Origin: Microvirga lenta
GTDB taxonomy: Bacteria; Pseudomonadota; Alphaproteobacteria; Rhizobiales; Beijerinckiaceae
DNA: 64,000 bases
Assembly: GCF_020532555.1 (NCBI RefSeq)
Contig: NZ_JAJBBR010000005.1
Coordinates: 1 to 64,000 of the forward strand
Reading direction: 5' to 3'
The notes below the pieces were generated by a model. It ran no database searches. It was not told the origin of the DNA and worked only from the letters and a program-made list of their open reading frames with translations. How positions within the stretch are numbered: position 1 is the stretch's first letter; every line of letters starts with the position of its first letter. The translations under genes and the position numbers were made by a program. Positions 5,742 through 63,871 of this stretch are shown here, piece by piece.

Positions 5742-6617
5742 ATGGACAGGCGACTCATAGTGGATACGACGGCGCGCAATCAAGCACATCGTGCGAGCCT
5801 CCGGTTCGCACCCAGCGGTGTTCTCGCCCAAGGAGAAGCATCGGATGGTTCTCAAAAGTGCAAGTCTACTTTTGAATCTAGTGCTTTAGGCCGGAAGCCA
5901 GCTTCCGGCGAGAAGCGGATCGCCATTGTTCAATCGGCATACATCCCTTGGCGCGGCTTCTTCGACATGATTGGCCGATGCACGGAGTACGTGATCTTCG
6001 ACCAGGTGCAGTTCGCCAAGAGGCATTGGCACAACCGGAACTGCATCAAGACGGCTTCCGGGGTTCATTGGCTGACGATCCCAGTCCTGTCGAAGTCCCG
6101 ATTCGAGCAGCCCATCGATCAGGTCCAGATCGCCGAGCCCTGGGCGGAGAAGCACTGGCGCGGGATTGAGCTTGCCTATCGGCGCGCCCCGTATTTCGAG
6201 ACGACGAGTTCTTTCCTGCGACCTCTTTACGAGAGGGCCGCCACGGAGCGCCGCCTGACCGACGTCAACGAACTGTTCCTGTGTGCCCTATCGCAACGAC
6301 TCGGCCTGAAGACCAGCATCTCCCGCGACACGCAATACCCCGCGGTCGGAGCCAAGTCCGAACGGCTTCTGTCCATCTGTCTCGCCGCGGGAGCGACCCA
6401 TTATATCTCTGGCCCTTCGGCGAAGGACTATCTCCGGGAAGAGATGTTCGCCGAACATGGCATCGCGGTCGAATGGATGGATTATTCGGACTATCCGGCC
6501 TATTCGCAGCTGCACGGCCCCTTCGAGCCGTTTGTCAGTGTTATCGATCTTCTTTTCAATCTCGGTGAGGATACCCCCCGTTTTCTGGGAGTCTGGTCCG
6601 AATCGGTACAGGCATGA
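5742..6617 (+). CDS. WbqC family protein
   Basis: The conserved WbqC fold begins at residue 59 with KRIAIVQSAYIPWRGFFD and continues through FDQVQFAKRHWHNRN, the typical family signature. Family members usually start right at this point, so the first 58 residues are an unusual extension. No ATG, GTG or TTG occurs in frame close to 5916, so either the upstream ATG is used or the start has been altered. WbqC proteins occur in O-antigen and surface glycan clusters; their biochemical role is not firmly established. It overlaps the next gene by 4 bases (ATGA), which implies translational coupling. Confidence 0.82.
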   Translation: MDRRLIVDTTARNQAHRASLRFAPSGVLAQGEASDGSQKCKSTFESSALGRKPASGEKRIAIVQSAYIPWRGFFDMIGRCTEYVIFDQVQFAKRHWHNRNCIKTASGVHWLTIPVLSKSRFEQPIDQVQIAEPWAEKHWRGIELAYRRAPYFETTSSFLRPLYERAATERRLTDVNELFLCALSQRLGLKTSISRDTQYPAVGAKSERLLSICLAAGATHYISGPSAKDYLREEMFAEHGIAVEWMDYSDYPAYSQLHGPFEPFVSVIDLLFNLGEDTPRFLGVWSESVQA

Positions 6618-7546
6618 GGATATCATTCGTCACGACGATCTACAGGAGCGCAGGGGCGATCGCCGAGTTCAGGCGACGGGCGATCCTTGCCGCCCAGGCG
6701 ATCGGCTGTGATTACGAGGTCGTCCTCGTCAATGATGCGAGCCCCGACAACGGTCTAGAGATCGCCCGGGAGCTCGCCGAGGAGGATTCAAAGGTCTCTG
6801 TCATCGACCTGTCGAGGAATTTCGGTCAGCATCGCGCCCTGTGGACGGGCATGGCCCACGCAACGGGCGACCTCGTCATGATCCTGGACGGAGATCTTGA
6901 AGAGGACCCAATGTGGGCGGTTACGTTCCACGAGACGATGACCTCGAACCGGGCCGATGTCGTCTACGGCGTCCAGGAGAGTCCCAAAGGATCAAAGGTC
7001 TATCGTCTGGGGCGGAACACCTTCTACAGAATGCTCGACGCGCTGACGACGTTCAACTTTCCCAAGGATGTCACGACAGCGCGGCTCATGACACGCCGCT
7101 ATATCGATGCGATTAGGCTCTTCGAGGAACGGGAACTGTTTCTGGTTGGAATTATGCATGTCGCCGGGTTCTCGCAGATCGGCGTACCCGTGAAAAAGCT
7201 GAGCCTTTCGAAGACCACGTACAACTATAGAAAGCTGATCCCGCTCTTCCTCAGCAGCGTCACGTCCTTCTCCGTCTCGCCGCTGTTTCTCATTTTTATT
7301 TCGGGCGTCGTCATCTTCTTCACATCATTGCTATTCATTGCTCTTCTGGTAGCGGCGAAGCTTCTAGGGGGCATCGGCGTCGAAGGCTGGATTTCCGTCA
7401 TGGCTGTGGTCAGCCTGTCCCTGGGGCTCAACGTACTGGTCAACGGCATCATCGCAATTTATCTCGCCACCATATTCCTCGAAGTGAAGCGCCGCCCACT
7501 GACGATCGTTCGGGACGTATACCGTTCGGACAAGGAAGACACATGA
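6614..7546 (+). CDS. GT2 glycosyltransferase (DPM1/GtrB-like) with C-terminal membrane helices
   Basis: The 310-residue protein shows an N-terminal GT-A fold with VNDASPDN near 39-46, RNFGQHRALWTG at 68-79 and LDGDLEEDP at 91-99. Two strongly hydrophobic segments lie near 225-290, followed by a basic EVKRRP tail. It is related to the enzyme at 3052 but differs enough to imply a different sugar. It is coupled by ATGA overlaps to WbqC upstream and to the methyltransferase downstream. It probably loads a sugar onto polyprenyl phosphate at the inner membrane. Confidence 0.86.
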   Translation: MRISFVTTIYRSAGAIAEFRRRAILAAQAIGCDYEVVLVNDASPDNGLEIARELAEEDSKVSVIDLSRNFGQHRALWTGMAHATGDLVMILDGDLEEDPMWAVTFHETMTSNRADVVYGVQESPKGSKVYRLGRNTFYRMLDALTTFNFPKDVTTARLMTRRYIDAIRLFEERELFLVGIMHVAGFSQIGVPVKKLSLSKTTYNYRKLIPLFLSSVTSFSVSPLFLIFISGVVIFFTSLLFIALLVAAKLLGGIGVEGWISVMAVVSLSLGLNVLVNGIIAIYLATIFLEVKRRPLTIVRDVYRSDKEDT

Positions 7547-8181
7547 CGACGAACGCCCCTAGACTTCTCGCTCAGGTCGCCGAATATTACGACGATAAGG
7601 CACGCACCTATGGGGCGACCCCGAAGGGCGCGGACTGGCGCGACGCGGAAAGCCAGGAACTGAGGTTCCTCGAACTGGCCAAGGTGCTGCGCGGGGCGCG
7701 GACTGGCTCCATTGCCGAAGTCGGATGCGGTTGGGGAGCATTTCCGCTCTGGGCGCAGCGGCACAGCCTCGACCTCGATTACACCGGCTACGACATCTCG
7801 GAGGTGATGCTGCGGGAAGCTGAGTCCGTCTGCGGGGCCCTGCCCAATGTTCGCTTTGCGAAGGGAGACAGGCCGGATGCCATGGCGGATTACGTCGTTG
7901 CCAGCGGGATCTTCAACGTCCGCTTCGATGCCCCAAACGACAACTGGCTTGATCTCGTCCGCTCAACGATCGACAACATGTACGAGAAGGCCAGGATCGG
8001 TATCGCATTCAATTTCCTGACAGGCTTCTCCGACCGGGACCGTATGGAGGCACGGCTGTATTACGCCGATCCAGGGGCGATCCTGAACTACTGCATTGGC
8101 CGATTCGGGCGGCATGTCACCCTTAATCATGATTACGGCCTTTATGAATTTACCGTGCTCGTTTGGAAGGGGAATGCCTGA
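7543..8181 (+). CDS. Class I SAM-dependent methyltransferase
   Basis: The 212-residue protein carries motif I as EVGCGWG at 59-65, an acidic strand end in YTGYDIS and no membrane segment. Length and pattern fit small-molecule methyltransferases of the Methyltransf_25/23 type. Its start overlaps the GT2 stop (ATGA). Its place in the WbqC-GT2 series suggests that it modifies the same sugar or lipid-linked intermediate, which is inference. Confidence 0.78.
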   Translation: MTTNAPRLLAQVAEYYDDKARTYGATPKGADWRDAESQELRFLELAKVLRGARTGSIAEVGCGWGAFPLWAQRHSLDLDYTGYDISEVMLREAESVCGALPNVRFAKGDRPDAMADYVVASGIFNVRFDAPNDNWLDLVRSTIDNMYEKARIGIAFNFLTGFSDRDRMEARLYYADPGAILNYCIGRFGRHVTLNHDYGLYEFTVLVWKGNA

Positions 8182-56375: not shown

Positions 56376-57131
56376 ATGTCCTCCTCAAGCAACACCTCCC
56401 GCCGCATCATGCTGCTCACCGGCGCCAGCCGCGGGATCGGGCATGCCACGGTCAAGCGCTTCTCGGCCGCCGGCTGGCGGGTCATCACCTGCTCGCGCCA
56501 CGCATTCCCCGAGAACTGCCCCTGGGAGATGGGTCCCGAGGACCATCTCCAGGTCGACCTGGCGGATGCGGAGGATACCCGCCGCGCCATCGCCGACGTG
56601 AAGGAGCGGCTGACCGCCGAGGGCGGCGTGCTGCACGCCCTGGTCAACAATGCGGGCATCTCGCCGAAGGCGCCCGGCGGCGCGCGGCTCGGCGCCCTCG
56701 CGACCCGCTACGAGGACTGGATCCACGTGTTCCAGGTGAACTTCTTCGCCTCGATCATGCTGGCCCGCGGCCTGCAGGACGAGCTGACGAAGGCCAAGGG
56801 CTCCGTGGTGAACGTGACCTCCATCGCGGGCTCCCGGGTCCACCCCTTCGCGGGCGCGGCCTATGCCACCTCCAAGGCGGCGCTGGCCTCCCTCACCCGC
56901 GAGATGGCCGCCGATTTCGGACCGCTGGGCGTGCGCGTGAACGCCATCTCCCCGGGCGAGATCGACACCTCCATCCTCTCGCCCGGCACCGAGAAGATCG
57001 TCGAGCAGCTTCCCATGCGCCGGCTCGGCACCCCGGACGAGGTGGCGAAGGCGATCTACTTCCTGTGCACCGACGCCAGCTCCTACGTCACCGGCGCGGA
57101 GCTGCACATCAACGGCGGCCAGCACGTCTAG
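56376..57131 (+). CDS. Short-chain dehydrogenase/reductase
   Basis: The 251-residue protein has LLTGASRGIGHATV near the N-terminus, NNAGIS, catalytic Ser in NVTSIAG, Tyr and Lys in YATSKAALASL, RVNAISPGEIDTSIL and a final HINGG. It is a classical NAD(P)-dependent SDR of unknown substrate. It follows pdxH by 74 bases and may share its transcript. It is convergent with the protease gene, with 9 bases between the ends. Confidence 0.92.
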   Translation: MSSSSNTSRRIMLLTGASRGIGHATVKRFSAAGWRVITCSRHAFPENCPWEMGPEDHLQVDLADAEDTRRAIADVKERLTAEGGVLHALVNNAGISPKAPGGARLGALATRYEDWIHVFQVNFFASIMLARGLQDELTKAKGSVVNVTSIAGSRVHPFAGAAYATSKAALASLTREMAADFGPLGVRVNAISPGEIDTSILSPGTEKIVEQLPMRRLGTPDEVAKAIYFLCTDASSYVTGAELHINGGQHV

Positions 57132-57140
57132 GAACGACCT

Positions 57141-59195
57141 TCAGCCCTCCTGAATCCCCCGCGGCATCCGCACCGGCGGCAGAACGATTCTTCCCGCCCC
57201 GCCGCGTTCAGGCGGCGGCTTCGGCGGATCGAGCTGCGCCTCATGGGCGGTCGCGAGCTGCTCGACCGCATCGCGGTCCCCGGGCCGTCCGGCTGCGAGC
57301 TCGCAGGCGATCCAGCGCGTGATCCGAGGCGCGGCGACGCTCGTCCCGTTCATGACGACGACCGAACCGCTGCGCGTGCCGGCGCCGAGCACGCCCGGAT
57401 GGGCGGCGGAATCGTCGCTCACCGTCAGCGCATCGGGGCCGTCCCGGTGGACCTGCGTGGCGCCGACCGGCACCGTGACGGGGCCGCCGGCCGAGTACGG
57501 CACGGGCCGCAGCTCCTTGCGATAGACGCCGCCGACGATGATCGTCTCATGGCCCGTGGCGATGGCGTTGATCGAGCCGTAACGCCGCACGATGCAGGAG
57601 ATGTCGTCCTCCTCGATCGGCCTGCCCGCATGGTCGTAGCGCCGGTAGCAGGGATGGTCGAAATACGACTGGCGCCCGCGGGTCGGATAACCGATGGGCG
57701 CGTCGTCCCGCTGCACCCAGGCCTCGACCATCTCGCCCGGCTGCAATCCCCGGTTCTTGAGGCGCAGGCGCCAGATCCCGGACTCGGCCGCCGGGCGGGG
57801 TGGCGGCGCCCGGCCCGGCCGCACCGTGGGCTTGAGCGCGACGAACAACATGCCGCGATCCGTCGGCGCCGGGGCGCGGTGGTAGCGCGCCTCGCACAGC
57901 ACCGAGCCGCCGACCACGTAGCGCAGCGTATGCAGCTGGCCCTCCTTCACCTCCCGCGGCGCGCTGTCATCTCCGGACGGCGTCTCGATCGTCAGCGCGA
58001 TCCGCTCCGCCCCGTCGGGGCCGGGCGGCAGCCAGATTTCGACGAAGCTCGGCGTCAGGTCGTCGGGCTGCACCCGCCAGGGCAGCTCCACCACCTCGTC
58101 CAGCGTGTCGAACGACACCCGCGTGTGCAGGCGCGCCAGGTGGCTGTTGCCGGACGGGATCACCACCCGCATCGGCCGGTTCCCCGCGACGGCGTTGTGG
58201 TCCCGCACGATCTCGTCGATGGCCGTCTCGATCTCGTGCGTGCCGTCGTGCGGACCGGCGGTGAGCCCGTAGCTGAAATTGATCGCGACCGGCGGGGGCC
58301 GTCCTCCTCCGGCCATGGCCAGCGCCACGTCGCGGATGTGCTTGACCGCGTCGATCACATAGGGGGCGAGGCTCGCGCCGGAGGAATCCGCCGTGGTGGC
58401 GGTCGGCAGCTGAACGCCAACGATGCGCCAGTCGGGCGTGTCGCCTGGGTCGAAGCCGCAGGCGAGATCCATCACGTGAGCGCCGTGCGAGGCATGCCTC
58501 GCCACGGGCTTGCGGCCGGGCCGCGCGAAATCTGCGACGCCCGCCCGGCGGTAGAACTCGTCCTCGTCCCAGTCCTGCTGCTCGGCCGCAGCGAGCAGGG
58601 CATCGATCTCGGCCTTCGTGATCATGCAGCCGTAGCCGTAGCCGCTGCGGCCGTCGTCCTCGCCGTCCTGGATCCAGACCGACTCGATCCGGGTGGTTCC
58701 GTCGGCCCGCCGGAAACGCTCGTGGCCGAAGGCGAGCCCGTCGTCGATGATGCCGACGATCACCGTGCCCGCCGTGAGCGGGCCGCTGGTCGAGGCGGGC
58801 CTGGGGCGAAAGGGGGCGTTCCTCGGCGTCACCGAGGCTTCGGGCAGCGGCGGGCCGGGCGTGGCCCACTCCGCCTCCCTCATGAACGGCCGGAACTCCC
58901 TTTCGGCGAACAGCCGCCGGACCTCCCGAAAGGTCAGGAAATGCGTCTCGAAGCGCTCGCTTCCCGGCGGCGAGCGCCCGGCCCACTCCGCCTCGCCGGT
59001 CAGACGCCGCCAGAGATCCCGGATCCTCGCCTCGTTCTTCTTCTCGCGCCAGCGCACGAGCAGCGGGACCCGCTGGCCGCCGGTTCGCGGCAGCAGGAAG
59101 TCCTCCCGCCCCGGACCCAGCGACCAGCGCAGATAGGGATCGAGATTCGCGAGCCCGAGGGGGTCGCTCCAGGGATCGTCATATTCCCACGGCAT
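57141..59195 (-). CDS. Subtilisin-like (S8) serine protease, no signal peptide
   Basis: The protein has 684 residues from the ATG at 59195 (PWEYDDPWSDPLGLANLDPY). The triad is complete: D151 in VGIIDDGLAFGHERF, H237 in ASHGAHVMDLACG and S619 in NGTSVAAPR. The first 140 residues form an unassigned N-domain, and a large insert separates His and Ser. No signal peptide or lipobox is visible, so it may act in the cytoplasm or leave by another route. It is the third gene of a leftward operon, 17 bases after the haloperoxidase-like gene, whose product or a partner could be its target. Confidence 0.88.
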   Translation of the reverse strand: MPWEYDDPWSDPLGLANLDPYLRWSLGPGREDFLLPRTGGQRVPLLVRWREKKNEARIRDLWRRLTGEAEWAGRSPPGSERFETHFLTFREVRRLFAEREFRPFMREAEWATPGPPLPEASVTPRNAPFRPRPASTSGPLTAGTVIVGIIDDGLAFGHERFRRADGTTRIESVWIQDGEDDGRSGYGYGCMITKAEIDALLAAAEQQDWDEDEFYRRAGVADFARPGRKPVARHASHGAHVMDLACGFDPGDTPDWRIVGVQLPTATTADSSGASLAPYVIDAVKHIRDVALAMAGGGRPPPVAINFSYGLTAGPHDGTHEIETAIDEIVRDHNAVAGNRPMRVVIPSGNSHLARLHTRVSFDTLDEVVELPWRVQPDDLTPSFVEIWLPPGPDGAERIALTIETPSGDDSAPREVKEGQLHTLRYVVGGSVLCEARYHRAPAPTDRGMLFVALKPTVRPGRAPPPRPAAESGIWRLRLKNRGLQPGEMVEAWVQRDDAPIGYPTRGRQSYFDHPCYRRYDHAGRPIEEDDISCIVRRYGSINAIATGHETIIVGGVYRKELRPVPYSAGGPVTVPVGATQVHRDGPDALTVSDDSAAHPGVLGAGTRSGSVVVMNGTSVAAPRITRWIACELAAGRPGDRDAVEQLATAHEAQLDPPKPPPERGGAGRIVLPPVRMPRGIQEG

Positions 59196-59212
59196 GGCAC
59201 GCCCTCCCTGTC

Positions 59213-60409
59213 TCAGCTCCACTCGGCCCTGGCTTTGTTCCAGAGCCAGGTGAGCAGTTCGGACTGCCGGGTCGGGTCGAGGGCCTGGTCGGCATTTCCG
59301 CGGATCAGGAAGTTCTTCTCCTCCAGCCGCTGGTTGTCCGGATCGTAGAGGTCGCGCCAGACAAAATCCTGGCCGGGTGGCCAGGCGCTCCCGTCGAAGG
59401 TCCAGTCCCGGTAAGTCGCGGCGCCGGAGCAGCGGTCGACGAAATAGCGCCCGAGGGTCAACCCCAGCACCGCGCCGGCCGCGCTGTCGACGGGAAAATG
59501 GACGCCCGCGACGGTGCGGTTGATGGCGATCCGGGCGGCGAGGCGCAAGAGCTGGATGCGCCATTCCGCGTCTGTATAGACGGCCTGTCCGGAGTTCTCC
59601 AACAGCTCCCAGAGCACGAGCGCCGCCGCGAAGGCCTCGGTGGCGTGCCCGCTGGGCAGCGAGCCGTGCGCGGGCGTGAGGATGAGCGGCTGGACCTGCG
59701 GCGAGTATTCGACCGGGCGCCGGCAGGCGAGACCCTGCTTGAGGCGCAGATGCACCACGATGGCGAGCCGCAGAACGGCGGCGAGCAGTTCCAGCGTATA
59801 GGGCGTCCGGTCCGGGTGCAGGTAGGAAACCGACGACAGGAAGGCGAGCCCGCCGCCCATCTGGGTCAGGATCTCCGATTGCCGGTCGGGACGCAGATCC
59901 GCGTAGCTTGCGAGAAAGTGGAGCTGCGCCTCGAAGATCGCCTGCGACGGGCGCGCCATGGCGACGAGCCTGCGGTATTCCGGCACCGGAGGGTTGCCGC
60001 CGACCGGGGCCGGAACCTCGAGATGCCACACGAAGAGGCGCGGGTTCGCGCCGCCCGCCTCCGCCGTGACGGCGAGGCGCGACACCATCTCCAGGTCGAT
60101 CGCGCCGGCCCGGACCCAGGGCGACCAGCGCTCCATGACGTCCGGATCGTCGAAGGCCAGCGGGCCGGGCGGCTGAATGGTCTGCCACGGCCCGACGATG
60201 CCGTCGCGGCTGCGGATCAGCGCGTCGGTCGTGAGCGGCGAGTCGAACCCGATGCCGCCGACGCCGCCGACTCCCCCCACGCCTCCGACGCCGCCTACTC
60301 CGCCGACACCTCCAACCCCGCCGACACCGCCGACGCCCCCTACGCCTCCGACACCGCCCACGCCGCCAACGCCGCCGAGCGGCCCGATTCCTGCCCAAAC
60401 CGTACTCAC
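59213..60409 (-). CDS. PAP2-superfamily/vanadium-haloperoxidase-like protein with (GGV)n leader
   Basis: The 398-residue protein begins with 13 GGV triplets and one GGI (residues 12-53), then a helical core with all three PAP2 signature motifs: K224-x6-R231-P232, PSGH at 252-255 and R298-x5-H304-x3-D308. Spacing and length resemble bacterial vanadium-dependent haloperoxidase-like proteins rather than membrane PAP2 phosphatases, because no transmembrane helices are evident. These proteins bind vanadate or phosphate; activity could be halogenation or phosphatase. It lies between the cyclase and protease genes in one operon. Confidence 0.8.
   Translation of the reverse strand: MSTVWAGIGPLGGVGGVGGVGGVGGVGGVGGVGGVGGVGGVGGVGGVGGVGGIGFDSPLTTDALIRSRDGIVGPWQTIQPPGPLAFDDPDVMERWSPWVRAGAIDLEMVSRLAVTAEAGGANPRLFVWHLEVPAPVGGNPPVPEYRRLVAMARPSQAIFEAQLHFLASYADLRPDRQSEILTQMGGGLAFLSSVSYLHPDRTPYTLELLAAVLRLAIVVHLRLKQGLACRRPVEYSPQVQPLILTPAHGSLPSGHATEAFAAALVLWELLENSGQAVYTDAEWRIQLLRLAARIAINRTVAGVHFPVDSAAGAVLGLTLGRYFVDRCSGAATYRDWTFDGSAWPPGQDFVWRDLYDPDNQRLEEKNFLIRGNADQALDPTRQSELLTWLWNKARAEWS
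60251..60376 (-). repeat. Tandem 9-nt repeat encoding (GGV)13-GGI
   Basis: Fourteen consecutive nonamers on the coding strand each encode Gly-Gly-Val (the last Gly-Gly-Ile). Third positions vary between units, which suggests the amino-acid pattern, not just slippage, has been retained. The array lies in the 5' end of the haloperoxidase-like gene. Confidence 0.9.
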
Positions 60410-60448
60410 GTTGGTCCTCCCTCGTTCTCGGCCCCGCGGCCGTCGACG

Positions 60449-62257
60449 TCACTCAGGGACGCCGGCATTCCGCAGAGTGGCCGCCCATTCGTCCCCGATC
60501 CTGTAGCCGGCGCTGGGCGAGCGCTCGCGCCAGCGGCGGATGGTGAGCTGGGGCTCCATCTGCAGGAGCTTTCTCACGGTCCGCCGCGCGTCCTCGTGCC
60601 GGCCGAGATGCCATTGCGCGATCGCCATGGCCCGCAGGGTTGAGGTGTGCGTGCAGTTGGCCCGCAGCGAACGCTGGGCGAGCTTCAGGGCGCGCTCGTA
60701 CTGGTGCGCTGCCAGATGAGCGGTCGCAGAGAGGGAGTCGTAGAAGTAGCGGTGAGGGTCGAGGGGCGAGAGCCTCAGGGCGCGCTGGGTGCAGCTCACC
60801 GCGGGCGTTCCCTCGCCCTTGAACGCGTGGAGCGTTCCCAGGAGCAGCCAGGCGAGGGAGTCGTTCGGATTGGTCAGGAGGGCGAGGTCGTACCGCGCCT
60901 TGGCGGTGTCGAGTTCCTTCAGGAGATTCGTGTGCACGAAGCCGTCGACGGAAAGCGCGAGCGAGCAATGCGGGTCGATGTCGAGCGCCTGCTTCGTGCA
61001 TTGCAGGGCGTAACGGGCATCCTGCTGCGGGTCCTCCGACCAGCCCTGCTGCACGCGCAGCACATGCCATTTCGCGAGCCACGCCCTCGGGACGGCCTGA
61101 CGCGGCGCCCGCTCGATCAGCGTTTCGAGGAGTCTCCTCGCCTGGTCGAAGTCGATGGACGACAGGCGGTGCATGAGCGCGACGGCGGCGATGAGCAGCG
61201 TGTAGCTCTTCAGGGTCGGCAGGGCCTGCGACTGCGCGCGCTGCAGCTCGCTCACCATCACGGCCGCGCTCACGTTGATGGCGATCTCGTCGATGAGCTC
61301 GCGCTTGCCGGAGAGAACGGCTGCGATCTGGCCCTTGCAGCGGCCCGCCCACGCGGTCTGCCCCGATTTGGCCTCCATGAGTTCGGCTTCGATGGCGACG
61401 AAACGATCCGTCACGCGGTATTCGCCCGACAGCACGTAGTCGGCGTTGAGATTGGCGCTGATCTGCGCCAGCGGTGTATCGCGCCCGCGAAACACGGTGG
61501 TGGACAGGCGCGAGATCACGTGCAGCTCCGGCGAGCGTGACAGGTCCTGGATCAGCTCCTCCGCCAGAACCTCGCCCAGCACGTGATGCTCGTCGCCAGC
61601 ATCGTCCGTGGTGAAGGGCACGACCGCCAGCGTCGGGCGCAGGTCGTCGACGAAAACGCCGGGCTCGATCACCGGGCGCGGGCCGGGCGGGCCGATCCGG
61701 TAGGTGCGGACAGGCTGCGGCACGTGCTTGAGATAGCACTCGCCGAGATCCTCGATATCCGCATCGAGATCGGCGGTGAGCTGGTCGCGCAGATTGGCCG
61801 AGATCACGATCTCGCCGGGACCCGCCAGGGTCAGGAGCCGCGCGGCGCGGCTGACGCCGCGTCCGTACAGATCCGCGTGATCGACGATGACGTCGCTGAT
61901 CTCGACGCCCATGCGCAGCATCACCTGCTGCGCGGGCGGAAGACCCGCATTCCCGCGATGGCTCGCCTGCTGGATCGCGAAGGCCGCCGAAACCGCCGAG
62001 CGCGCGTCGTCGAAATCCAGCAGCATCCCGTCGCCGAGGCCCTTGGTGAAATGGCCGTTGAATTCCGGAAGGATCTCGGTCCTGACATGCTCCACGAAGG
62101 CGAGCCAGCGGGACACGAAAGCGGTCTCGTCCTGCTCCACGTGGCGCACGGATTCCACGACGTCGAGGATCAGCACGGCTCGGTTGGCCCGCACTGCAGC
62201 GGAATAAGGCTCGTCGGGTTGCTGACCGATCTGAGCCAAAGCATCCTCCGGCGACAC
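60449..62257 (-). CDS. Class III adenylate/guanylate cyclase with TolB-like and TPR regions
   Basis: The 602-residue protein begins with a class III cyclase domain at about 22-195, with the metal Asp residues D32 (ILDVVESVR) and D76 (KGLGDGMLLDF), then GVEISDVIVDHADLYGRGVS and AARLLTLAGPGEIVIS. A TolB/FlgO-like nucleotide-binding-type segment follows (about 208-330, PTLAVVPFTTDDAGDE, RLSTTVFRGRDTP), then TPR-like repeats to about 590. No transmembrane helix is visible. It is the first gene of the leftward operon with the haloperoxidase-like and S8 genes (39-base gap), so cyclic-nucleotide signalling may control or accompany them. Confidence 0.88.
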   Translation of the reverse strand: MSPEDALAQIGQQPDEPYSAAVRANRAVLILDVVESVRHVEQDETAFVSRWLAFVEHVRTEILPEFNGHFTKGLGDGMLLDFDDARSAVSAAFAIQQASHRGNAGLPPAQQVMLRMGVEISDVIVDHADLYGRGVSRAARLLTLAGPGEIVISANLRDQLTADLDADIEDLGECYLKHVPQPVRTYRIGPPGPRPVIEPGVFVDDLRPTLAVVPFTTDDAGDEHHVLGEVLAEELIQDLSRSPELHVISRLSTTVFRGRDTPLAQISANLNADYVLSGEYRVTDRFVAIEAELMEAKSGQTAWAGRCKGQIAAVLSGKRELIDEIAINVSAAVMVSELQRAQSQALPTLKSYTLLIAAVALMHRLSSIDFDQARRLLETLIERAPRQAVPRAWLAKWHVLRVQQGWSEDPQQDARYALQCTKQALDIDPHCSLALSVDGFVHTNLLKELDTAKARYDLALLTNPNDSLAWLLLGTLHAFKGEGTPAVSCTQRALRLSPLDPHRYFYDSLSATAHLAAHQYERALKLAQRSLRANCTHTSTLRAMAIAQWHLGRHEDARRTVRKLLQMEPQLTIRRWRERSPSAGYRIGDEWAATLRNAGVPE

Positions 62258-62475
62258 GGTTGCGCACCGGCAAAGAGGCCCTGCCGGAAAAAGGCGGACG
62301 ACAGCGAATAGTCAGTATTACGTATGGTAATGCCGACAGAGGCGTGTTTTCAAGCGTGCGGTGGGTACTCCCCTTTGGTCGCTGCATTGCGCCAGAGGAA
62401 TTCTTGCATCGGGACAGGCTCTGCTCCCCCGGGTCCGGGGGCCTGATCGAAGCTCGCGGAGAGCGCCCCCGTGGC

Positions 62476-62564
62476 TCTCCTCCCCACGGACCTCGGGCTT
62501 GCCAGTCGACATCTCGCACCGATGGCGCAACCGGACTCTCCTCCCCACGGACCTCGGGCTTGCC
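62476..62564. repeat. 28-bp direct repeat, two copies
   Basis: Identical units start at 62476 and 62537 (TCTCCTCCCCACGGACCTCG then GGCTTGCC), 61 bases apart. Only two copies exist and there is no cas gene, so this is part of the intergenic repeat landscape rather than a CRISPR. Confidence 0.75.
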
Positions 62565-62609
62565 CGAGATCCGCATCCTCTTGCGCAAGTCGGGAACACC
62601 CGACTTGCG

Positions 62610-62702
62610 GTGGGGAGGAGGTGGAGGTGGGGGTGTGAGCGATAGCCTATGAAGGTCCGGCGCCGGCACCCCCACCCTGGCCCTCCCCACAAGGGGGAGG
62701 GA
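62610..62702. repeat. GC-rich palindromic repeat, family A, copy 2
   Basis: GTGGGGAGGAGGTGGAGGTG at 62610 and CCTCCCCACAAGGGGGAGGG near 62682 match the arms of copy 1 at 40771-40876, including the shared GTCCGGCGCCGGCACCCCCA core. The centre differs in sequence and length. Confidence 0.7.
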
Positions 62703-62800
62703 AGGAGCTCGCGCCAGACAGCGCCGCATCGACGACGGCTTTTCGCTATGCCGTCCCGAGGAGCCGCGACGAACCAGGCTCGACGACGGCGGCGGAGTGT

Positions 62801-63871
62801 CTACGCCGCCTGCGCCGGCCACGGCCCCACATAATCCGACCGGGGCCGGATGATCCTTCCCGTCTTCACCTGCTCCACCGCGTGAGCGACCCAGCCTGCC
62901 GTGCGGCCCGCGCCGAAGAGCGGGGTGAAGCCCGCGCGGGGAATGCCCAGCGCCTCCAGCAGCAGGGCGGTGTAGAACTCCACGTTGGTGTCGAGCCTGC
63001 GACCGGGCTTGCGGCGCTCCAGCACCGCGAGCGCCGCCGCCTCCACGGCCTCCGCGAAGGCGATGCGGTTGTCGCGGCCCTTCAGCCGCCCGGCGGCGGC
63101 TTTCAGCACGTCGGCGCGCGGATCGCGCACCCGGTAGATGCGGTGGCCGAAGCCCATGAGGCGCTCGCCGCGGCCGATGGCGTCGTCGAGCCAGCCTTCC
63201 GCATTCTCGACGGTTCCGATGGCGTCGAGCATGTCGAGCACCGGTCCCGGCGCGCCGCCATGGAGCGGACCTTTGAGGGCGCACAATCCCGCCACGACGG
63301 ACGAGAGGATGCCGGCCTCCGTGGAGGCCACCACGCGGGCCGTGAAGGTCGAAGCGTTGAGCCCGTGGTCCATAATGGTGACGAGATAGGTGTCGAGCCC
63401 GGCCGCCTCCCCCGCGTCGGCGGGCGTACCGCGCAACATGCGCAGGAGGTCGGCGGCATGGGCCGCGGACGGGTCGGGCTCGATGGGACCGTTACCCCCT
63501 GCGCCGCGCACCGCCATGGCGGCCGCGACCCCTGCCCCGCCGATCGCGAGGAAGGCCGGATCCTCGTCCGCATCCGGCAGGGCCGCGAGCAGGAGGCGCA
63601 TGCCCTCCACCGGGGTCAGGCCCGCAAGGCGGGGAGCGAGCGGCGCCAGATGGCCGAAGGCCCGCGCCCGCGCCGCGCCGATCCTGCCGGCGAGATCCTC
63701 GGCCCCTTCGGTCACGAGCCCCTCCCAGAGAATTGCCACGGCGCGCTCGAAGGACATGCGGCCCGCCAGCTCCTCGAGGTCGTGGCCGCGGACGATCAGG
63801 CGTCCGGCCTCGCCGTCCACGTGGCTGAGGATGGTTTGTGCGGCGATGACGTCGTCGAGACCGAGCTTCAT
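62801..63871 (-). CDS. Short citrate synthase/methylcitrate synthase-like protein
   Basis: The protein has 356 residues from the ATG at 63871 (KLGLDDVIAAQTILSHVDGE). Active-site His residues lie in MDHGLNAST (H169) and FGHRIYRVRDPR (H243), with the GPLHGGAPG loop at 201-209. In the usual NVDFY motif the catalytic Asp is replaced by Glu (NVEFY, E298). At about 356 residues it is shorter than the main citrate synthase (about 430), as in citrate/2-methylcitrate synthase paralogues. It condenses an acyl-CoA with oxaloacetate if active. Confidence 0.88.
   Translation of the reverse strand: MKLGLDDVIAAQTILSHVDGEAGRLIVRGHDLEELAGRMSFERAVAILWEGLVTEGAEDLAGRIGAARARAFGHLAPLAPRLAGLTPVEGMRLLLAALPDADEDPAFLAIGGAGVAAAMAVRGAGGNGPIEPDPSAAHAADLLRMLRGTPADAGEAAGLDTYLVTIMDHGLNASTFTARVVASTEAGILSSVVAGLCALKGPLHGGAPGPVLDMLDAIGTVENAEGWLDDAIGRGERLMGFGHRIYRVRDPRADVLKAAAGRLKGRDNRIAFAEAVEAAALAVLERRKPGRRLDTNVEFYTALLLEALGIPRAGFTPLFGAGRTAGWVAHAVEQVKTGRIIRPRSDYVGPWPAQAA

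Follow-up and report, generated by a model that had tools for sequence, protein, structure and literature searches.

What holds the units of a tandem repeat identical in the protein when the synonymous sites are scrambled, and nonetheless allows close relatives to carry arrays that differ as a whole? The question is raised by a three-gene cassette on the minus strand of a 64,000-nucleotide stretch of Microvirga lenta DNA (assembly GCF_020532555.1, contig NZ_JAJBBR010000005.1, positions 1 to 64,000; the window). Gene 1 (60449..62257, GTG start) encodes a regulator of 602 amino acids, gene 2 (59213..60409, GTG start) a PAP2-fold enzyme of 398 amino acids that carries the repeat at its N-terminus, and gene 3 (57141..59195, ATG start) a Csp-like subtilase of 684 amino acids. 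Gaps of 39 and 17 bases separate them. A preliminary description of this DNA had the coordinates, order and gaps of the genes right, and each residue that it named in the cyclase, the PAP2 enzyme and the protease is present.

A conserved and mobile gene cassette

Searching with the protease yielded matches (E up to 0.001) in 12 of 149 genomes of the family and in 27 of 347 genomes of the order, the own genome being included in both counts. From this search 35 stretches were taken, in which genes were called from open frames and base composition without a trained gene finder. They contained 28 PAP2 genes, that of the window included. Four of the other stretches (L058, L059, L060, and L084) had a weak S8 match or none and no PAP2 gene, L061 was the region of a gene-1 paralogue, and in L075 and L082 the contig ended before any PAP2 gene became visible. 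The protease gene lay downstream of the PAP2 gene and on the same strand in 27 of the 28 loci and was convergent in L080. A regulator was found upstream of the PAP2 gene on the same strand in 21 loci and in divergent orientation in five, while none was recognised in two.

When named genomes were scanned with an alignment of the PAP2 proteins, at least 489 relatives came up, of which the best 80, near duplicates included, were examined. The regulator was present upstream in 79 of these loci (same strand in 74, divergent in 5), the remaining one, L142, beginning at a contig edge. A protease was called downstream in all 80, with that of L132, near a contig end, falling under the score limit of one tally. 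Gaps of at most 60 bases were observed at 69 of the 74 regulator junctions and at 76 of the 80 protease junctions. Co-occurrence and order of the three families in relatives, proposed earlier as a check on the reading of the genes as one unit, are thus conserved, and chance proximity was rejected, as the linkage is far above chance. Separate promoters between the genes had been named as evidence against such a unit; the sole promoter-like site within 57000-62900 (62324..62353, minus strand; a consensus match only) precedes gene 1. The main hosts are Alphaproteobacteria (Microvirga, Rhizobium, Bradyrhizobium, Tardiphaga, and roseobacters) and Burkholderiales (Paraburkholderia and Caballeronia). 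One locus comes from an Anaerolineae metagenome-assembled genome (L112), which shares its sample label with one from Geminicoccaceae (L119) and may be misbinned.

The cassette occupies an inserted stretch of about 5.7 kb (57128..62804, edges uncertain by some bases) flanked by the genes for an SDR and a citrate synthase, as seen from alignment to the empty site in three congeners. In two of these the flanks abut, and in the third 91 bases lie between them; in further congeners the SDR and citrate synthase genes are kilobases apart. PAP2 matched strongly (E 1.6e-80 or better) in 13 of 41 genomes of the genus, the own one included, and weakly in four more. In the other 12 genomes with a strong match, the PAP2 gene is on a different contig from the SDR gene. 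PAP2 matches were also found in 46 plasmid records, extending over at least 80 % of the query in 29; 21 were from Phaeobacter and 16 were predicted to be conjugative. The cassette is a horizontally exchanged unit. A phage origin was rejected, since the 13 virus contigs with a PAP2 gene yielded distant relatives only (best E 1e-10).

Other elements were noted around the cassette. A 29-base direct repeat in three copies, two identical and one 69% alike, is located upstream of gene 1 within the inserted stretch (62419-62564). Nine loci, mostly from roseobacters (L120, L121, L123, L135, L141, L143, L151, L155, and L158), encode a same-strand protein of about 215-270 amino acids, of unassigned family, upstream of gene 1, which is possibly a fourth cassette member. 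In ten loci from Burkholderiales (L127, L129, L136, L146, L147, L148, L157, L160, L161, and L163) a related gene, response-regulator-like by eye, is found upstream of gene 1.

The repeat array of the PAP2 enzyme

Gene 2 matches the Pfam PAP2 family with 53.7 bits, and its PhoN-like core is modelled with confidence from about residue 75 onwards. K224, R231, H255, R298, H304, and D308 are invariant in alignments of 28 and 65 rows, as are the catalytic Lys, Arg, His, Arg, His, and Asp in an alignment of 10 rows; P232 is invariant among the 28 rows and not among the 65. Invariance of the active site across the 65 rows means that catalysis by PAP2 is selected for. The fold is closer to that of the PhoN phosphatases than to that of the vanadium haloperoxidases. 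As judged by eye, the member PAP2s have no signal peptide, while signal-like N-termini are seen in outgroup PAP2s (L253, L255, L256, L257, and L263), which lack an array and next to which own profiles recognised neither regulator nor protease; L254 is ambiguous in this respect. Gene 2 probably encodes a phosphatase with the fold of the class A acid phosphatases that resides in the cytoplasm.

The preliminary description had mentioned a low-complexity leader in this protein. The leader exists, and it is by nature a perfect tandem short repeat: residues 12-52 (60254..60376, minus strand) form a (GGV)13.7 array without a single deviation in the protein. All 28 PAP2s of the first set begin with such a perfect array, of about 6 to 16 copies, with a period of three residues in 26 and of four in two. 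Among the best 80 of the 489 relatives, 78 have at least three perfect copies and 72 at least five; the two with fewer than three are L142, cut by the contig, and L120, with an irregular AAF-like array. A comparable array was present in only 3 of the 884 other gene calls in these 80 loci, one of them being the frame of the L163 protease. Another of the three, a (GS)20 array in L135 (9529-10707), is encoded by a frame close to further regulator and protease matches and may belong to a second member or a second cassette in that locus.

The 106 arrays collected are built from 41 units, and every unit contains Gly, Ala, Ser, or Asn. Codon departures within 100 distinct period-3 arrays (2910 codons) amounted to 1339 synonymous and 34 nonsynonymous ones. 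Against a neutral expectation of 2.49 nonsynonymous per synonymous change, this gives an omega-like ratio of about 0.01, a value biased downwards by the picking of arrays by their perfect core. The near-universal presence of the array in PAP2s, which were chosen by their catalytic domain, cannot stem from that bias. In the window, 17 of 39 array codons differ synonymously from the commonest codon. Adjacent DNA units were identical in 51 of 868 cases, versus 46.7 expected upon shuffling, and as such units are no commoner than after shuffling, the arrays are not fresh products of slippage.

The unit changes readily between species. At least 39 unit changes were counted on a quick tree computed from 79 PAP2 domains with the arrays removed, and near neighbours may differ in the whole array, as do SGF x11 and SGL x11 (L118 and L122) or GGV x12 and GGI x12 (L089 and L091). 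Seven arrays from Phaeobacter plasmids have (NSF)x6 in six cases and x5 in P. piscinae, all other differences being synonymous. Synonymous homology between the arrays of relatives was observed in 6 of 31 pairs (p<0.05, uncorrected; L088/L090, L089/L090, L089/L088, L118/L125, L121/L155, and L113/L110). It was mostly absent from pairs with differing units, with the exception of L118/L125. Co-resident cassettes with unlike units (L071/L072 and L103/L121) are expected by chance and were not used as evidence. A partner with a matching repeat in the same genome was considered and rejected, as a scan of the own genome for three consecutive GGV units returned only the PAP2 array.

A modular regulator and interchangeable proteases

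The regulator consists of a cyclase-like head, a FlgO/TolB-N-like domain (residues 209-300), and TPRs (about 389-570). The head scores 18.6 to 20.3 bits, below the Pfam cut-off of 21.9 bits, and is the weakest (E 6.5e-4) of twelve Guanylate_cyc matches in the own genome. The metal-binding pair D32 and D76 is kept, as is Arg140. Ser136 (codon 61850..61852, minus strand) occupies the position at which most cyclase-type relatives have an Asn, which we take to be the transition-state residue, so that the transition-state pair is incomplete. Among 54 heads typed as cyclase with an own profile, 38 have Asn at this position, seven, from the nearest Microvirga loci, have Ser, and nine do not match the motif pattern. 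The earlier claim that all catalytic residues are readable therefore holds for the PAP2 enzyme and the protease and is too strong for the cyclase. As Ser136 stands at the position of the transition-state Asn, cyclase activity in the window is uncertain; the substitution lowers the case for an active cyclase and leaves a cyclase-like domain standing.

The nature of the head itself varies. Pfam assigned 47 of 80 gene-1 heads, the window included, to Guanylate_cyc and 25 to Trans_reg_C, while own profiles on 79 heads gave 54 of cyclase type, 18 winged helices, six divergent-regulator-like, and one unassigned. On the 79-row PAP2 tree the head type switches six times, one switch being the unassigned row. 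Genes for CRP-like regulators were noted close to cassettes in L092, L100, L110, L113, L128, and L164 and in L179, corresponding to 6 of the 54 loci of cyclase type, of which two are near duplicates, versus 1 of 25 others; a tie of these neighbours to cyclase-type heads is suggestive only.

Gene 3 matches Peptidase_S8 with 25 bits and has the architecture of the Csp proteases. D151, H237, S619, and N350, the last presumably the oxyanion residue, are invariant in alignments of 28 and 64 rows. This Csp-like subtilase is the usual protease of the cassette. Wider PAP2 samples gave matches in 9 of 289 genomes of the class and 32 of 378 of the phylum, from which 8 and 20 stretches were fetched. Their distant PAP2s keep the array and the regulator, and the third gene differs, encoding another subtilase or an unrelated Peptidase_A4. 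The latter was found beside GNT, NTS, and GNA arrays (L208, L210, L211, L212, and L246), and other S8 proteases beside a GGNWF array (L247) and an NK dipeptide array (L251, and by eye only L252). In L209 another S8 protease gene is located upstream of a PAP2 gene with a DAR array, in divergent orientation. The protease has thus been replaced by a non-homologous one next to a tagged enzyme of constant type.

Function of the cassette and its relation to known systems

The system and its tag are well supported, and for their function we tentatively favour a self-regulated cassette in which the target of the protease is an intracellular, repeat-tagged phosphatase whose activity is thereby released or ended. 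Gene 1, whose head (cyclase or winged helix) is joined to a FlgO/TolB-like domain and TPRs, would sense a state and control the operon. The effector would be the acid-phosphatase-fold enzyme in the cytoplasm, whose array most likely serves as a flexible, multivalent tag through which the enzyme molecules bind each other into an assembly. The adjoining protease would act on the tagged enzyme, most likely by cutting off the tag and thereby releasing it, or else by degradation. That a constant, repeat-tagged PAP2 enzyme stands beside a protease of changing lineage argues for a functional tie between tag and proteolysis. As species differ freely in their unit but each array is strictly uniform, the array most likely acts by self-similarity. 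This is the simplest property that could be under selection, because the letters of the tag vary, the units of an array stay alike, and the search of the own genome for a partner bearing the tag found none. A bolder and rather doubtful version holds that repetition itself is the signal: a disordered, lineage-private tag, differing in its entirety even from those of close relatives, would drive assembly of PAP2 with its own kind only. Whichever protease is at hand (Csp-like, other subtilase, or A4 peptidase) would cut this tag and so turn the enzyme loose on nucleotides or lipid phosphates, with a cyclase or DNA-binding TPR sensor in command.

Several observations weigh against such a tag-and-protease mechanism. 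The array is disordered in the AlphaFold model, and the unit chemistry, spanning GGF to GES, GAR, and NK, is a poor fit to a single mode of assembly or a single cleavage specificity. Array class was not associated with protease columns (mean 0.144) in excess of PAP2 (0.136) or gene-1 columns (0.157), in a comparison based on four chemistry classes that ignores kinship among rows; co-evolution of array chemistry with the protease was accordingly rejected, and the lack of co-variation weighs against sequence-specific recognition. The two loci of the first set without a recognised regulator are L076 and L079. In L249 a distant PAP2 (6279-7727) with a long, irregular GLGLGN start has an upstream regulator and no recognised protease, its neighbour of 983 amino acids matching no Pfam family.

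The array could instead dock or inhibit the protease, keeping it quiet as a multivalent substrate or decoy; the protease would then be the true effector, with PAP2 having a separate job. A protease adjoins despite its change of lineage and keeps its triad in the Csp-like form, but the invariant PAP2 active site and the absence of an excess association between array class and protease make this explanation unlikely. An anti-phage role through abortive infection, with gene 1 sensing infection and the protease freeing PAP2 to halt growth by hydrolysis of nucleotides or phosphate esters, has a low probability as well. In its favour are a patchy, mobile distribution and a weak resemblance between the head and the cyclases of Pycsar systems. 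A PADLOC search, however, gave only weak PycC matches in the window (best E 0.0086) and none for genes 2 and 3, so that a known defence family was rejected and the pairing of a PycC cyclase with a Pycsar effector was not found; the window neighbours look housekeeping-like by eye, and virus contigs carry distant PAP2s only. The earlier interpretation as a maturation or stress/defence device is partly supported, a defence role being a possibility.

Phosphate or peptide scavenging by enzymes that leave the cell without Sec, for example by lysis or in vesicles, with the array as an export or surface-binding tag, is quite improbable. Most PhoN phosphatases, subtilases, and A4 peptidases work outside the cytoplasm, and the outgroup PAP2s without an array have signal-like N-termini by eye; against this, no secretion gene recurs in the cassette and the regulator appears cytoplasmic. 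That gene 2 encodes a vanadium haloperoxidase producing reactive halogen species is very unlikely. Least probable is a neutral, flexible linker repeatedly born by slippage in an otherwise ordinary operon. Tandem repeats arise easily and copy numbers of relatives differ by whole units, but the omega-like ratio, the count of identical adjacent units, and the Phaeobacter arrays, which vary only synonymously and by one unit, all disfavour it, and it was set aside on these codon statistics.

The tagged enzyme and its protease can be compared with several known systems. The NTP-dependent conflict systems of PMC7159879 resemble the cassette in their modular operons, in which cyclase and peptidase parts displace one another, and differ in that PAP2 occurs 0 times in the main text. 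The cassette is not described in the accessible parts of PMC7159879 and PMC12419801, and a literature search, with bioRxiv and most subscription papers outside its coverage, returned no description of the cassette, the tag, or the swapping of parts. Absence from these papers and from PADLOC does not establish that the cassette is undescribed.

Class A acid phosphatases such as PhoN and PhoC differ from the enzyme described here, which by eye has no signal peptide, is extended at its N-terminus, carries a tandem array, and is encoded within a regulator-protease cassette. The Csp germination proteases (CspB, CspA, and CspC) have a relative here in proteobacteria, adjoining a PAP2 enzyme; CspB activates pro-SleC, a role without counterpart in the cassette. 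The HilA-type and cyclase-TPR regulators likewise carry a head on a FlgO/TolB-like and TPR body, whereas here the head alternates between cyclase and winged helix within one cassette family. The His-Xaa-Ser and glycine-rich-repeat modification systems likewise have short tandem repeats encoded in a compact cluster of genes, but here the unit is free to vary and the repeat forms part of an enzyme, and no modification enzyme recurs among the clustered neighbour proteins of the cassette loci. Bacterial gasdermin cassettes have one effector that is released by neighbouring proteases of differing families. Adjacency and protease replacement, the elements of that logic, are found in the cassette loci; PAP2 is not a pore former, however, and it carries an N-terminal repeat tag whose cleavage is proposed.

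Every protein of the cassette is a member of a known family, and public annotation is generic ('phosphatase PAP2 family protein', 'S8 family serine peptidase'), so that a widespread operon, with its at least 489 PAP2 relatives, has been concealed behind routine labels. To our knowledge, no other system combines a perfect repeat tag private to a lineage with an enzyme that stays constant and proteases that can be exchanged.

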